From Chitinophagaceae bacterium (lineage in GTDB: Bacteria > Bacteroidota > Bacteroidia > Chitinophagales > Chitinophagaceae), in assembly GCA_947381435.1 (NCBI GenBank), contig CANCVE010000029.1, positions 1 through 40,651 on the forward strand: a stretch of DNA of 40,651 bases, written 5' to 3'. The position numbers and the translations under genes are program-made. Positions 8,856-39,869 of this stretch are shown piece after piece. Position 1 is the first letter of the stretch; each line of letters begins with the position of its first letter. Below the pieces are notes generated by a model that saw only the letters and a list, made by a program, of their open reading frames with translations, was not told the origin of the DNA and did no database searches.

Positions 8856-8941
8856 CGTCATTGCGAGGAACGAAGCAACCCTTTTAAATCACTTTAAGCG
8901 TACTTTTCCTGAAAAAGGTTGCTTCGTTCCTCGCAATGACG
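8856..8941. repeat. Perfect 25-bp inverted repeat, dispersed-repeat type
   Basis: Positions 8856-8880 (beginning CGTCATTGCGAGGAACGAAG) are the exact reverse complement of 8917-8941, with 36 bp between. Near-identical 'GTCATTGCGAGGA' hairpins occur in many unrelated bacterial genomes as dispersed elements; this is recalled, not searched. Transcribed from either side it would form a very stable stem. It sits in a promoter-bearing region, about 185 bp before the thioesterase start. Confidence 0.85.
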
Positions 8942-9072
8942 GGGAGACCTTAGCGTTTTTAAAAGAAGTCATTAGCCATTGTATGCTCATTCCTTTCCTT
9001 CAAATCATTAAACCTAATTTTAAAACAACTAAAAGTAATTTGCATTGAGGAGTACAAACATCGTTTTTTTAA

Positions 9073-9128: not shown

Positions 9129-9542
9129 ATGTACACGGCAGAGACTTTGGTAAGAGTGAGATATGCAGAAACCGACAAAATGAGTGTTGTTTATCATGGC
9201 AACTTTGCCCAATATTTCGAGGTGGGGCGTGTAGAAGCCATGCGTGCATTGGGTTATAGTTATAAAGAAATGGAAGCCGATGGTGTTATTATGCCTGTGG
9301 TAGAACTGAATTGCAAGTTTTTGCGTCCAGCAGTTTATGATGATTTGCTTACCATAAAGACTTTGTTAAAAGAAATGCCTACCAATTATAGAATCACATT
9401 TCACCAGGAAGTTTATAATGAACTGGGCAAACTACTAGCCGCTGCACAAGTAACTTTATACTTTATGGATGCTGCTACCATGACCAAGACGACGATGCCC
9501 ACTAGATTGGCGAATGAATTAAAAGCTTTTTATAATGACTAA
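9129..9542 (+). CDS. YbgC-like acyl-CoA thioesterase (hotdog fold)
   Basis: This 137-residue protein should hydrolyse acyl-CoA thioesters in the cytoplasm. The family signature is clear near the N-terminus: RVRYAETDKMSVVYHGNF (residues 9-26), with the catalytic aspartate at 16 and the Tyr22-His23 pair. YFEVGRVEAMRALG, the start of the central hotdog helix, follows. The length is normal for the 4-hydroxybenzoyl-CoA thioesterase/YbgC family, whose substrates range from short-chain to aromatic acyl-CoA, so the substrate here is open. It is a single gene; a palindrome array begins about 100 bp after its stop. Confidence 0.88.
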   Translation: MYTAETLVRVRYAETDKMSVVYHGNFAQYFEVGRVEAMRALGYSYKEMEADGVIMPVVELNCKFLRPAVYDDLLTIKTLLKEMPTNYRITFHQEVYNELGKLLAAAQVTLYFMDAATMTKTTMPTRLANELKAFYND

Positions 9543-9640
9543 TCTTCGAGCTTCCATTATTAACCTTTAATATTCCTATAGAATACTAAATTTCTTCAAA
9601 AAAGCGCGGATTGGGAAATACTCAATACGGATTTTGGTCG

Positions 9641-9864
9641 AAACACTACGGTTTAGGAGGCAAAGAATACGCTCTTTTACGCAAACACTACGGTTTGGAG
9701 GTGAAACAGTAGTGTTTGCCACCCAAAGACATGCCTTTAGACTCCAAACAGTAGTCTTTGGACTCCAAACAGTAGTCTTTGAACTCCAAACAGTAGTGTT
9801 TGCTCTCCAAACCGTAGTGTTTGAACTCCAAACCGTAGTGTTTGTGCTTCAAACCGTAGTGTTT
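9641..9864. repeat. 21-bp phased array of short palindromes (about 11 units)
   Basis: Units start at 9641, 9662, 9683, 9704, 9725, 9746, 9767, 9788, 9809, 9830 and 9851, an exact 21-bp step. Most units are AAAC-N6-GTTT followed by seven bases such as GAACTCC. The six-base core is CGTAGT in the last three, AGTAGT in four central ones and ACTACG (reverse complement of CGTAGT) in units 1 and 3. Unit 5 reads AAAG-ACATGC-CTTT, where both arms changed but still pair. Since 21 is divisible by 3, a 78-codon open frame runs through it (repeating LQTVVF), which I do not believe is a protein. The surrounding gene-free gap is 9543-10147. Confidence 0.9.
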
Positions 9865-9930
9865 ACCTAAATACGTGTATAGTTTGAGAGGGAAAGGGGC
9901 TTTTTAGAGCGAGAAAGGGTAGAGAGTTGG

Positions 9931-9970
9931 TCTGAATCAGGATTGTTTTGATAAAAGGATGGGGAGGATT
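9931..9970. repeat. GAATCAGGAT-type intergenic repeat
   Basis: The string TCTGAATCAGGATTG is followed by two more AGGAT words at 9956-9960 and 9965-9969. From memory, strings with 'tctgaatcaggat' and repeated 'aggat' are scattered between genes in several Bacteroidota genomes. Only one copy is present here. Confidence 0.3.
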
Positions 9971-10147
9971 ACTCGCCGATACTGGGGAATGCCAACAATC
10001 CATAGTTAACTGACCCAAATAAACCATTACATTCGCTAATGAATGCCGTTGATATATATTTTAAGAGATAATTCAGAAATTATCTTTCAAAACAAACATG
10101 CGACAACACAAACTTTGGCGGTAATTTTTATTTGAAATCACAAAACT

Positions 10148-10762
10148 TTGAAAAAGAAGAAGAAAAAATATCGGAATCCTGACATTGAGTATAGACAACC
10201 GTTGTATGATATTTATAAAAGTAAATATCCTTATTACAACTTAAAAAGTAATGCGATTGGTAGCTTATTTTTAGTAGGACTTTTTTTTACAGTATGGGAA
10301 ATAAACATATATAGGGAGACTTTCATTTCTGTCTATATTCCTTTAAGCATTTGGATTTTGACTGGTTTGATTATATCACCATTTTTCAAAAGAACTTTCA
10401 ATATTTTCTGTTTCAATCCTTACACGCCGGGAGAAACAGCAATCTTTTGGCATATCTTCTTTAATATTATTTCTTTTGGAGGAATGTTGGTGTTTTTGTT
10501 TATGTGGACAAATCAAACATATTGTGACAAGTCAAAAACCATTGAAACAGTTAGAATAAATTCTATTGGACATTTAGCAAAAGGGAGAAATGGTTGTGGA
10601 AATCCATATGCTAAAATTACTTATCAAGGTAACGAAAAAGAACTTGTATTTAGTTGTGGGACAGAAATAGAAAAGTTTAGCCAAGTTTATATTGAAGTAC
10701 AAAAAGGTTTTTGGGGTTATAAAGTAATAACTAAAAAGACATTATTTGCAGGACAATGGTAG
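10148..10762 (+). CDS. Orphan membrane protein of unknown function
   Basis: A 204-residue protein that I do not recognise. The frame is closed by a stop at 10133-10135, and the only suitable start is TTG at 10148, giving the very basic start MKKKKKKYRNPDIEYRQ. Three hydrophobic segments lie at about residues 37-55, 60-80 and 98-125. A soluble C-terminal domain of about 80 residues follows, with three cysteines (C131, C154 and C174 by approximate count) and beta-like sequence such as YAKITYQGNEKELVF. It stands alone between repeat-rich DNA and a terminator, which fits an acquired accessory gene. No function is proposed. Confidence 0.6.
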   Translation: MKKKKKKYRNPDIEYRQPLYDIYKSKYPYYNLKSNAIGSLFLVGLFFTVWEINIYRETFISVYIPLSIWILTGLIISPFFKRTFNIFCFNPYTPGETAIFWHIFFNIISFGGMLVFLFMWTNQTYCDKSKTIETVRINSIGHLAKGRNGCGNPYAKITYQGNEKELVFSCGTEIEKFSQVYIEVQKGFWGYKVITKKTLFAGQW

Positions 10763-10962: not shown

Positions 10963-11391
10963 TTAAACACGATGATTGTCTGCTCGCCAATTTTTGATGG
11001 CTTGTTTTATTTGCTTATTACTCAAGTTTTCTTGCAATGCCTTAGTGGCAAGGGCAACTACTTCATCATCTGATGCAAACCGTAAGGCAATAATTTGTTG
11101 AATGGTCAATTTATTACTCAAAGGTTTGCCTTTAAGTATAAAATACCGCAAACTCTCCTCTGCACGGATGGCTCTGTCCTGCGCTTTAAGAGCAAAGATT
11201 CTAATATAAATAAATAACAACACAAGAATAAAAGCTACCAAACAAATAAGCGAGGCAGAATAAAGATTCTCTTTGACCGAATGTGCCAAGTTGATAAATG
11301 AGCCAATAAGCAAAGCTAAAATGGCAAAAAAAGTAAGCCCGTGCCAACCTAAAACTAACCTTGTGTGATTCTTGAAATTTTGTTCTTTCAT
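10963..11391 (-). CDS. DUF6526 family membrane protein
   Basis: I place the start at ATG 11391 (MKEQNFKNHTRLVLGWHGL), giving 142 residues; a longer frame from 11487 adds 32 residues of poor quality. Two membrane helices follow (about residues 17-36 and 46-67), then a conserved cytoplasmic tail: LKAQDRAIRAEESLRYF, GKPLSNKLTIQQIIALRFAS and DDEVVALATKALQ. 'QDRAIRAEE...IIALRFASD' is the hallmark of the DUF6526 family, which has no known function. It is a single gene with its own terminator. Confidence 0.82.
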   Translation of the reverse strand: MKEQNFKNHTRLVLGWHGLTFFAILALLIGSFINLAHSVKENLYSASLICLVAFILVLLFIYIRIFALKAQDRAIRAEESLRYFILKGKPLSNKLTIQQIIALRFASDDEVVALATKALQENLSNKQIKQAIKNWRADNHRV

Positions 11392-11591
11392 ATTTAAATA
11401 TTTAATTAGTTGGGTGCAAGTTCGGTGTTTTACAGACTTGCGAAATAAAATATTGTATCTACAGTTCAATATTAAAAAAGGAAACAATGCCTACCTTACA
11501 TTTATTCAACTACTACTATTTTAATGGAAATAAAAGTTCAAATACAATTCATATTATAAAAGAAGTTATCTTGGCTGCAAATTTTTAGTAG

Positions 11592-28204: not shown

Positions 28205-28304
28205 TTCAGTGAGCAGTTATATAGTGAACAGTAATCAGTGATTATTAAATAAAAAACTGATAACTGTTCACTGATAACTGTTTACTGTTAACTGATAACT
28301 GTGA
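28204..28304. repeat. Inverted clusters of 7-bp CAGT/ACTG repeats
   Basis: Left cluster (28204-28239): ATTCAGT, GAGCAGT, an 8-bp slip, GAACAGT, AATCAGT. Right cluster (28256-28304): ACTGATA, ACTGTTC, ACTGATA, ACTGTTT, ACTGTTA, ACTGATA, ACTGTGA, seven exact 7-bp steps. The two halves can pair into a long imperfect stem. The 18-mer at 28223-28240 (AGTGAACAGTAATCAGTG) is identical to 39767-39784. The cluster fills the gap between dapD and the transporter gene and reaches its possible GTG start. Confidence 0.88.
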
Positions 28305-28312
28305 AAGAGAAA

Positions 28313-29227
28313 ATGAAATTAGCTGGTTTTGGTATCGCCCTTTTGGGGGCGATACTTTTTTCTACAAAAGCAATTTTTGTAAAGCTTGCTTTTCATGCCA
28401 CCCATACAGACGCTATCACGCTGCTCAGTTTGCGCATGTTGTTTTCTCTCCCTTTTTATCTGATTATTGCTTTTGTTTCTTCCCGCAAGGAAGGCTCGGT
28501 AAATATTACCCCAAAACAATGGTTTTATATCGGTTTGCTGGGCTTATTCGGCTACTACATAAGTAGTCTATTCGATTTTATTGGTTTGCAATACATCACC
28601 GCAGGGCTTGAAAGACTAATACTTTTTCTATATCCCACATTTTCTGTTCTACTTAATAACATCATTTTTAAAATAAAACTAAACCGAACTCAGATTATTG
28701 CTTTACTTCTAACTTATATAGGTATAGGTCTTGCTTATTTTGGTGAGTTTAAATTGGATACCAATAACCCTAATTTCTTTTTCGGATCGCTGATGATTTT
28801 TTTATGCAGCATTACCTATTCTTTTTATTTGGTAGGTACAGGCCGATTAGTAAACAAAGTGGGGTCAGCCAGATACACCACTTATGCCATGTTGTTTGCA
28901 ACCCTCGGAATCTTTACACATTTTGCTATCACAAAACCATTAACTAACTTTGTTTTTACGCCAATGCTAATAGGCTACGGTTCAGCCTTAGCCATTATTG
29001 CCACCGTTATTCCTTCCTTCATGATTTCTTATGCCATGAAAAAAGTTGGTAGTAATAATGTATCCATCATTACCAGCATTGGCCCTGTAAGTACTATCAT
29101 TCAAGCGCATTTTATATTGGGAGAAAAGATTTTTCTTGAACAGATATTAGGAACCATCCTAGTGGTTATTGGAGTTTTATTGATTGGATGGAAGTCAAAT
29201 TCAGAAGAAACTATACCTAATAAGTGA
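28313..29227 (+). CDS. EamA/DMT family transporter
   Basis: The 304-residue protein has ten membrane helices in two five-helix halves, as in the drug/metabolite transporter superfamily. The first half starts at GFGIALLGAILFSTKAIFV and the second at FFFGSLMIFLCSITYSFYLV. The region ISSLFDFIGLQYITAGLERL and the end QILGTILVVIGVLLIGW are typical EamA sequence. I prefer the ATG at 28313 (MKLAGFG), because the GTG at 28301 lies inside the repeat cluster. The substrate is unknown. The last codons and TGA stop overlap the first degenerate unit of the following palindrome array. Confidence 0.87.
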   Translation: MKLAGFGIALLGAILFSTKAIFVKLAFHATHTDAITLLSLRMLFSLPFYLIIAFVSSRKEGSVNITPKQWFYIGLLGLFGYYISSLFDFIGLQYITAGLERLILFLYPTFSVLLNNIIFKIKLNRTQIIALLLTYIGIGLAYFGEFKLDTNNPNFFFGSLMIFLCSITYSFYLVGTGRLVNKVGSARYTTYAMLFATLGIFTHFAITKPLTNFVFTPMLIGYGSALAIIATVIPSFMISYAMKKVGSNNVSIITSIGPVSTIIQAHFILGEKIFLEQILGTILVVIGVLLIGWKSNSEETIPNK

Positions 29228-29425
29228 TTTTTTTCTCAAAATAAGAGGTCTCTTATTGCCAATAAGCTTTAGCTTATTCCAAATAAGAGGTCACTTATTG
29301 CCAATAAGCTTAAGCTTATTCCAAATAAGAGGTTACTTATTGCCAATAAGAATAAGCTTATTCCGAATAAGAGGTTACTTATTGCCAATAAGAATAAGCT
29401 TATTACGAATAAGTGACCTCTTATT
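29219..29425. repeat. 21-bp phased array of AATAAG-N6-CTTATT palindromes
   Basis: Nine full units start at 29240, 29261, 29282, 29303, 29324, 29345, 29366, 29387 and 29408, an exact 21-bp step. A degenerate unit at 29219 holds the stop of the transporter gene. Each unit is AATAAG, six core bases, CTTATT and a three-base linker (GCC after odd units, CCA/CCG/ACG after even ones). Odd cores are AGGTCT, AGGTCA or AGGTTA; even cores are CTTTAG, CTTAAG or AATAAG. The last core, TGACCT, is the reverse complement of AGGTCA. Beyond the array, 29426-29627 shows nothing I can name. An 82-codon frame through it is a by-product of the period. Confidence 0.92.
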
Positions 29426-29627
29426 TTACTGATTCAATTAGAAATTTTAAAAAGGGCAAACCGAAGAAGTTACTATCCCTTCCTTTTATGTATGAAGACT
29501 GGCTGCACCTTCATCAATAGTTAATTATTTCTTTCATTCAAAACAACTAAATCAATTGAATAAAACAACACTATCCTTCTTTTTTACTATTCTTGCCAAT
29601 TACTCAATCAGCATTAACTAGAAAAAA

Positions 29628-30221
29628 GTGTATTTCTATTCAATAGATAAACCTTCGGTGGCAGAATATAAGGATAAGGGAAGCCGTTTTATTGCGTATG
29701 CTTACCCCTTGAAGGATGCGGAAGATTTTAAAAAGATTTTATTGGGCTTGAAGAAGGAGCATCCCAAAGCGGTGCATCATTGTTTTGCCTACCGAATTGG
29801 AACTGATGGAAACAACTTTAGGGTTAGTGATGATAAAGAACCAAGCGGCTCGGCAGGTAAACCAATACTAAATGCCATAGATAGCAGACAATTAACCAAT
29901 GTATTGATTGTGGTAGTAAGATATTTTGGCGGAACTTTATTGGGTGTTCCAGGATTGATAAATGCCTATAAATCAACAGCAGCAATGGCGTTGCAATTGG
30001 TGCCTGCCATACAATACCCCATAGAAATTAACTACCAATTGCAGTTCGATTACACCATGATGAATGAGGTAATGATGATTGTGAAACATTTTAACTGCTC
30101 GGTATTGAAACACGAAAGCCAGCTATTCAACGTTTTGGAGATAGGCATCCCAAAAGCCAAATTGAAAGAAGCATTAGACAAACTAAAAGAACTGCACACG
30201 GTAGAAGTGAAGAAGTTATGA
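29628..30221 (+). CDS. YigZ/IMPACT family protein
   Basis: The 197-residue protein starts at GTG 29628 (MYFYSIDKPSVAEYKDKGSR). The IMPACT-family core is clear: SRFIAYAYPLKDAEDFKKIL, HHCFAYRIG, RVSDDKEPSGSAGKPIL and VVRYFGGTLLGVPGLINAY. The C-terminal domain (residues about 135-197) is the smaller alpha/beta part found in bacterial YigZ. Members are implicated in translation or stress control through relatives of yeast Yih1, but the bacterial role is unsettled. It stands alone after a repeat array. Confidence 0.9.
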   Translation: MYFYSIDKPSVAEYKDKGSRFIAYAYPLKDAEDFKKILLGLKKEHPKAVHHCFAYRIGTDGNNFRVSDDKEPSGSAGKPILNAIDSRQLTNVLIVVVRYFGGTLLGVPGLINAYKSTAAMALQLVPAIQYPIEINYQLQFDYTMMNEVMMIVKHFNCSVLKHESQLFNVLEIGIPKAKLKEALDKLKELHTVEVKKL

Positions 30222-39748: not shown

Positions 39749-39869
39749 AAACAGTTAACAGTAAACAGTGAACAGTAATCAGTGCAGAAAGTGCTTAATC
39801 TCCAAAGTTTTAACTTTTAACTTATTTACTGCTCACTGTTAACTATTTACTGTTTACTGTTCATTGAAA
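39749..39869. repeat. Inverted clusters of 7-bp CAGT/ACTG repeats, second copy
   Basis: Left cluster (39749-39783): AAACAGT, TAACAGT, AAACAGT, GAACAGT, AATCAGT. Right cluster (39828-39862): ACTGCTC, ACTGTTA, ACTATTT, ACTGTTT, ACTGTTC, then ATTGAAA. Both keep exact 7-bp steps, and the two halves can form a long imperfect stem around about 44 bp that also contains two TTTTAAC words. It lies between two minus-strand genes, ending 3 bp before the stop of the edge gene. It shares an 18-mer with 28223-28240. Confidence 0.88.

Follow-up and report, generated by a model that had tools for sequence, protein, structure and literature searches.

How do two repeat arrays on one bacterial contig come to share a 21-bp step when their letters are unrelated? 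The contig, referred to here in its whole length of 40.65 kb as the window (C29), is part of a Chitinophagaceae draft genome (G000; 4.88 Mb, 231 contigs), and the closest named relatives of the polyphosphate kinase of this genome are found in Chitinophagaceae MAGs, the top one at 91% identity (JANYEU010000082.1). The locus touches on a question that is open in print, namely why, in some bacteria, intergenic DNA is filled with repeats that keep one length but vary widely in sequence; bacterial satellites of constant size and variable sequence were reportedly described by Subirana and Messeguer in J. Bacteriol. in 2020. Because the array sites can be compared between sister species, and the samples reveal a genus boundary, descent, helical-phase selection and a dedicated enzyme become separable by comparative genomics.

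The two arrays of the window

The first array (positions 9641-9864) starts 99 bp downstream of its left neighbour, a thioesterase-like gene (4HBT; 9129-9542, plus strand). Its eleven units begin at 9641 + 21k, in the exact 21-bp steps that a sequence-only reading of this DNA had noted, and Tandem Repeats Finder assigns a period of 21 to positions 9741-9864 with 90% matches. The flip of the core described in the same reading is likewise borne out: the three left units (9641-9702) carry ACTACG, AATACG and ACTACG, and among the centre and right units (9704-9864) seven carry AGTAGT or CGTAGT and the one at 9725 carries ACATGC. The arms follow the proposed palindrome AAAC..GTTT in seven of the eleven units; two have AAAC..CTTT and are not complementary there, one has AAAG..CTTT, and the unit at 9662 is out of register. 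Palindromy of positions 9682-9864, also claimed from the letters, is above that of column-permuted versions (p 0.01, the lowest value the test can give), and the two halves of the array form a 108-nt inverted repeat that is 70% complementary (9623-9730 with 9754-9861).

The second array (29239-29427, nine units) has a 42-bp alternation, in which two 21-bp units take turns. It lies between an EamA-type transporter gene (28301-29227, plus strand) and a UPF0029 gene (29628-30221, plus strand), the left and right anchors of the orthologous site discussed below. Positions 29236-29413 are palindromic at p 0.02 against the column-permuted null, and the predicted RNA fold of the array consists of three hairpins with a z of -10.4 against dinucleotide shuffles. 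The two arrays had been called unrelated, and this holds by eye as well as in whole-unit comparisons, where the pair is absent from the significant ones.

To the right of the first array, a DUF6526 gene (10963-11487, minus strand) adjoins the corresponding array in the sister species G003. Between array and DUF6526 the window has a 204-aa ORF without a Pfam match (10148-10762), and at the corresponding place in G003 the gap between array and gene measures only ~110 bp. An inverted repeat, GTCATTGCGAGGAACGAAGCAA...TTGCTTCGTTCCTCGCAATGAC, at 8856-8947 represents a motif common across bacteria and has similar copies at several places in G003. Heptamer-based repeats (AACTGTT/AAACAGT) are located at 28255-28302, 39749-39784 and 39813-39861; they recur as 14-bp arrays elsewhere in G000, and 7, 14 and 21 have a common factor. 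The window contains no tRNA gene and no Rfam family at gathering score, and a known structured RNA was accordingly dropped as a candidate.

The register in the genome and the genus

Tandem arrays were detected by ungapped autocorrelation (periods 8-119) in 700 kb of the window genome, i.e., in 35 stretches of 20 kb that comprise the first 20 kb of C1-C11, C13-C16 and 20 more contigs, unselected for content; five stretches obtained because they held matches (L033-L037) are omitted from this census. A genome scan returning just the two arrays of the window had been named as possible counter-evidence to a common mechanism, and the census returned 65. Sixty of these are mainly intergenic (less than half coding), in a sample that is 81% coding according to a simple home-made ORF caller, and the intergenic arrays mostly share a common register. 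Their periods are 14 (five arrays), 21 (20), 22 (three), 41 (six), 42 (11), 43 (two) and 44 (one), with single arrays at 30, 58, 59, 63, 64, 66, 71, 83, 84, 97, 109 and 111. Periods of 21-22, 41-44 or 63-66 account for 46 of the 49 intergenic arrays of period 18-66, and none of the 60 has a period of 17-20 or 23-29. Derived from the period and its nearest multiple, the unit measures 20.5-22.2 bp in 50 of the 55 arrays of period at least 18, a figure of little meaning for the longest periods. Tandem Repeats Finder, applied to the window and to 20 stretches, among them the five chosen ones, agrees with this pattern, and no array appeared at any period of 8-69 when the first 300 kb of the sample were Markov-shuffled.

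The density amounts to 9.3 arrays per 100 kb, perhaps slightly inflated as 9 of the 65 arrays lie less than 2 kb from a contig start, and extrapolation from this seventh of the genome suggests ~400 intergenic arrays in all. The median length of intergenic arrays of period at least 20 is 179 bp (10-90% range, 95-266). The register is the constant feature of these arrays; palindromy is common, not universal. Excess palindromy over the column-permuted null was found at p<=0.05 in 14 of the 43 unselected arrays of period 20-22 or 40-44 (seven at the smallest attainable p), and RNA folding gave a z of -2 or lower against a permuted null in 18 of the 37 unselected arrays of at least 100 bp. A/T or AA/TT power at 10.5 bp showed no excess over tiled random 21-mers, and intrinsic curvature by phased A-tracts was rejected on these grounds.

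A position downstream of a plus-strand gene, noticed for both arrays of the window and correct for both, does not extend to arrays in general. The 48 array-bearing gaps with a called gene on both sides, arrays sharing a gap being merged, comprise 26 codirectional, 16 divergent and 6 convergent ones; the split is similar for all gaps of at least 150 bp, with 118, 48 and 28, respectively. Fifteen of 25 codirectional placements are nearer to the upstream stop and 10 nearer to the downstream start, and a terminator role was discarded as there is no clear 3' bias.

In the samples, arrays on the register are restricted to the genus. All six congeners sampled (36-80 kb each, 379 kb) hold them, amounting to 12 of the 22 arrays detected there (three in G005, one in G006, four in G007, one in G010, two in G011 and one in G012). 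No register array was found in samples of 11 genomes from the family and order but outside the genus (40-80 kb each, 720 kb), where six arrays have periods of 8, 12, 15, 37, 81 and 96. Coding arrays were retained in both sets. Some congener contigs (G005:C60, G005:C8, G006:C96, G011:C217, G012:C113 and G007:C47) were picked because they had already appeared in searches; of these, G005:C60 and G006:C96 carry their family-1 arrays beyond the 20 kb sampled, and the G005:C8 stretch includes a tail match. One congener also harbours arrays of 9-bp units, a different register (L188:3398-4257, G012:C1). A Y1/RAYT transposase is a doubtful common cause, since Y1_Tnp is not genus-restricted: it has seven matches in the window genome and is present in 20 of 24 genomes, including G013, G014, G025 and G031, in whose samples register arrays were absent.

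A dispersed element and its orthologous sites

Homologous copies of the first array stand at eight places in its own genome, the window included. A BLAST search with window positions 9600-9990 yielded 24 rows, which comprise these eight places with array sequence and nine rows that match the tail only, all within query positions 316-374. A hit at C49:1358 was set aside as chance, because its surroundings show no array. Within the genus, 4 of the 12 other genomes also have BLAST matches to the family. One copy (C12:30651-31029, 70%) aligns with query positions 8-387, that is, with window 9607-9986 (plus strand), right-hand tail included, and pairwise alignments give 71% over 413 bp for copies A and B, 71% over 351 bp for A and C (inverted) and 69% over 362 bp for A and the window. 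The tail segment with CTGAATCAGGATT (9930-9973, plus strand) is present elsewhere in the genome without an array according to BLAST; this motif occurs without an array at further places in the own genome and in congeners, and in G005 its copies are ~100 bp apart. Phage, plasmid and viral-contig collections held no copies detectable with the single query or pattern used in each, and no site examined is an unambiguous empty site of the family. In G002, G003 and G012 no array was seen near the thioesterase gene; the G003 locus was rejected as an empty site, being rearranged with an array of the same family beside DUF6526.

The element has a recurrent 12-unit form. Copies A, B, C and C2 and the G005 copy measure exactly 247 bp from cap to cap, corresponding to 12 units of 16 bp and 11 spacers of 5 bp (12 x 16 + 11 x 5), and their halves are mutual inversions. 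The dispersed copies have common ends, as seen in the five equal 247-bp copies, one of them in a congener. The window copy (9661-9886, plus strand) is 226 bp long, the 247-bp form minus 21; other cap-to-cap lengths are 243 bp in G003, 223 bp in G002 and 388 bp in one G006 copy, the latter two measured from other left boundaries. Nine copies entered the comparison of lengths and arms; C100, C9 and C115, which are cut by contig ends, and further G006 copies were left out.

Pairing statistics were obtained from an ungapped alignment of the five 247-bp copies, which represent two subfamilies. The mirrored halves pair at 72.8%, and in 28 of 123 pairs both sides have changed; for the three outermost units the mirror value is 88.1% (core 93.3%, spacers 70.0%), with 20 of 62 pairs changed on both sides, and for the inner units only 57.4%. 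Mirrors shifted by 1-3 units pair at 53.5-65.1% and contain 9 to 23 covarying pairs of 92-113; at a displacement of one unit, pairing is 65% and 23 of 113 pairs covary. Since displaced mirrors also covary, some of the covariation is shared by every unit. The local palindromes pair at 63.5% (outer four 82.1%, core 45.0%), with 11 of 96 pairs covarying, and the local spacers at 22.7%. The change of both arms to AAAG..CTTT, present in a single window unit, had been read as a local compensatory change; as a rule this is not borne out in the five full-length relatives, where local cores pair at 45% and mirrored outer arms at 88%. With local spacers at 23%, local compensatory pairing was dismissed as the main constraint.

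The outer arms change together. Within a copy, the identity of the outer 62-nt arms is 0.95 for A, C2 and G005 and 0.87 for B, and it ranges over 0.69-0.76 among the remaining five, giving a mean of 0.82, compared to an average of 0.73 and a best-of-four value of 0.77 between copies; in four of the nine copies, the likeness of the arms is no higher than 0.75. Copy C and the G003 copy have GGAATG for GGTTTG in each arm, a variant that breaks the local palindrome and keeps the mirror. The predicted RNA folds are long hairpins, with z -11.0 for the window array and -12.8 for copy A (dinucleotide shuffles). Both stem selection and template-switch homogenisation predict covarying arms, and the mirrored 12-unit element lends itself to testing whether template switching homogenises arms.

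Array sites were compared with those of the sister species G003 and G040. L084 belongs to G040, and G039, which holds L083, was treated as G003 because their matches are identical. Fourteen sites or groups were examined (two in the window, three in L162, four in L166, two in L168 and three in L172); five are without sufficient flanks, and the other nine yielded ten comparisons. The same family occupies both sites in six of the ten: L168:6489, L168:13198 and L172:9543 with G040, and L172:2994, L166:10918 and window 9641 with G003. For the last of these, family membership rests on BLAST and sequence reading, the unit profiles being only 0.38 alike; the DUF6526 neighbour is conserved in G003 and the thioesterase side is rearranged. 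Three comparisons reveal orthologous sites with different letters and the register kept. The G003 counterpart of window 29239 has 20-bp units, AAAACGATTTTATTCCTAGA, between the same flanks; at L162:15455, TTGGTTAACACTTTGCCGCAT in G040 replaces AAAGTTTGAACTTTTGCGATG, with flanks of 91% and 81%; and L168:6489 corresponds in G003 to a two-copy 41-bp repeat of other sequence. In the tenth comparison, L166:14147-15328, G003 has no array, and the G000 arrays there are off-register (periods 58 and 97).

Judged by their letters, the L162:15455 and G040 units may be distant relatives: their similarity of 0.52 is reached by 3 of 33 G000 arrays, L162:15455 itself among them, the G040 unit is closest (0.82) to L168:13198 of G000, and the L169:16285 array mixes both cores. 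Members of the 20-bp family of G003 also occur at other places in G000, with period 20 on C65 and C50 and 21 on C17, and therefore the two species hold different families at the 29239 site. This one family has a 20-bp period in members from G003 and G000 and a period of 21 in the remaining matches. At L330:1235-1634 (G040:C7), two different 21-bp unit families are joined with the register unbroken.

Pairwise comparison of 33 G000 arrays of period 21 or 42 (31 unselected ones and the two of the window) placed 11 of 528 pairs above the 99.9% null, where 0.5 would be expected. Twelve of the 33 have a significant relative in this set and 21 have none, and support for common descent is therefore confined to part of the arrays. 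With a seventh of the genome sampled, the number of arrays with relatives may be underestimated; the first window array has no relative among the 33, yet seven further places in the genome. The sequence-only reading had taken shared geometry without shared sequence to suggest a common mechanism or machinery and not descent from one repeat. The geometry stands, with 46 of 49 arrays on a ~21-bp register; the exclusion of descent does not, given the relatives of 12 arrays. These relatives, the seven further places and the 20-bp family in two species imply that descent and dispersal explain part of the geometry.

Origin of the arrays and comparison with known systems

The reading we prefer, to which we assign a probability of about one half, is that the first array of the window is a copy of a dispersed, hairpin-forming, genus-specific satellite element, which has been copied and homogenised by slippage and template switching and has inherited its register. 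Copies would spread by insertion or ectopic conversion; replication slippage would gain or lose whole units, so that the period is kept; and template switching or conversion between the arms would keep the inverted halves alike. Substitutions would drift, and families would therefore lose their sequence likeness earlier than their period. Helical-phase selection may have contributed as well to the narrow unit range of 20-22 bp, close to two turns of B-DNA: a drifting unit length should yield some arrays of 17-19 or 23-25 bp, and as there are none among 60, selection is favoured. The sharp limits of the register and its continuation across the family junction of L330 speak for such two-turn phase selection. 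Replacement of one array by another is not the rule, given the same family in six of the ten orthologous comparisons.

Helical phase is also central to the idea that the arrays serve as tracks for a hypothetical dimeric nucleoid-type protein, one dimer binding per two helical turns, with the step selected and not the letters. The concentration of 46 of 49 arrays on the register, the lack of periods 17-20 and 23-29 in all 60, and the register running on over the two-family junction in G040 (L330:1235-1634) are consistent with it, as is the protein requiring a constant repeat size that was proposed for other bacteria (PMC8161180). However, there is no 10.5-bp phasing excess in A/T or AA/TT over tiled random 21-mers, 29 of 43 arrays are without excess palindromy and 19 of 37 without excess folding, and the samples of neighbouring genera lack such arrays; we give protein tracks a low probability. 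It is very doubtful that a machinery of the genus handles modules of two helical turns at fixed intergenic addresses, overwriting the letters in register and keeping address and step.

Strong predicted folds (z -11.0 for the window array, -12.8 for its relative and -10.4 for the 29.2-kb array) and covarying arms might indicate that the arrays act as RNA, transcribed long hairpins terminating transcription or protecting mRNA 3' ends like REP/BIME. Such a role appears quite improbable, as 3' ends are not clearly preferred (26 codirectional, 16 divergent and 6 convergent gaps), about half of the arrays have no excess folding, and template switching can keep arms alike without any RNA function (PMC8794818). 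The window element could also be a MITE moved by a transposase, as may be compared with BrickBuilt, or by a Y1/RAYT-type enzyme. Its dispersed copies, recurrent length and common tail, the seven Y1_Tnp matches in the genome and the precedent of BrickBuilt (PMC4596501) agree with this view, which is still unlikely: Y1_Tnp occurs in 20 of 24 genomes, including the four whose samples are free of register arrays, and mobility alone gives no account of a register common to unrelated arrays. The least credible candidate is that of ordinary neutral minisatellites whose palindromy arose by chance, which the period census already disfavours. Tandem arrays do arise by slippage, and 29 of 43 arrays taken singly are not significantly palindromic, but ordinary slippage is expected to generate many periods, whereas 46 of 49 arrays follow one register and the shuffled control has none; in addition, excess palindromy is more frequent than expected (14 of 43 at p<=0.05) and the mirror arms covary.

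Several known systems share single traits with the arrays. CRISPR repeats span 24-48 bp and alternate with non-repetitive spacers of regular size (PMC3733652), and the 16-bp units and 5-bp spacers of the window family led us to reject a CRISPR array. REP, BIME and REPIN sequences are likewise short intergenic palindromes, at times clustered and often in inverted pairs (PMC3733652, PMC3116915). In most REPs a GTAG or CGTC tag marks the end, and their arrangement varies (PMC3733652), whereas the arrays described here keep strict 21-bp steps over up to 12 units, and in the window units GTAG is confined to the core and absent from the end. Template switching at quasipalindromes accounts for inverted-repeat arms changing together; it is a mutational mechanism, not an element, and leaves the 21-bp step unaccounted for (PMC8794818).

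The nearest system in Bacteroidetes is BrickBuilt of Porphyromonas gingivalis, a MITE that contains a 23-nt minisatellite (PMC4596501). Like the arrays of the window genome, it is intergenic and dispersed, has a unit near two helical turns (23 nt) and bears flanking tails. Its own features are a single 23-nt direct-repeat family, a leader, a tail, small inverted-repeat ends and 19 copies in one strain; the mirrored halves seen here are not mentioned for BrickBuilt in the available part of PMC4596501. A literature search, judged by titles, retrieved none on such arrays in this genus or on mirrored 21-bp arrays.

Taken as a class, the arrays match the known bacterial satellites of constant size and variable sequence, which according to Subirana and Messeguer comprise 20-23-nt repeats in many bacterial groups, with a repeat length of two helical turns and a function not known to these authors (PMC8161180). 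Both have a 20-22-bp register, are non-coding and form multiple one-length families per genome with different letters; here, the constant 20-23-nt unit is found in 46 of 49 arrays, 60 of 65 are mainly intergenic and the genome holds several families. With regard to the species specificity of satellites, the window family has matches in four of the 12 further genomes searched in the genus. The mirrored long-hairpin architecture, the recurrent 12-unit form, a family common to species of a genus and orthologous sites with different arrays set the present case apart, the terms palindrom, hairpin, orthologous and Bacteroidetes having no occurrence in the main text of PMC8161180. The constant-size pattern is already published, and the present genus allows it to be compared between sister species.
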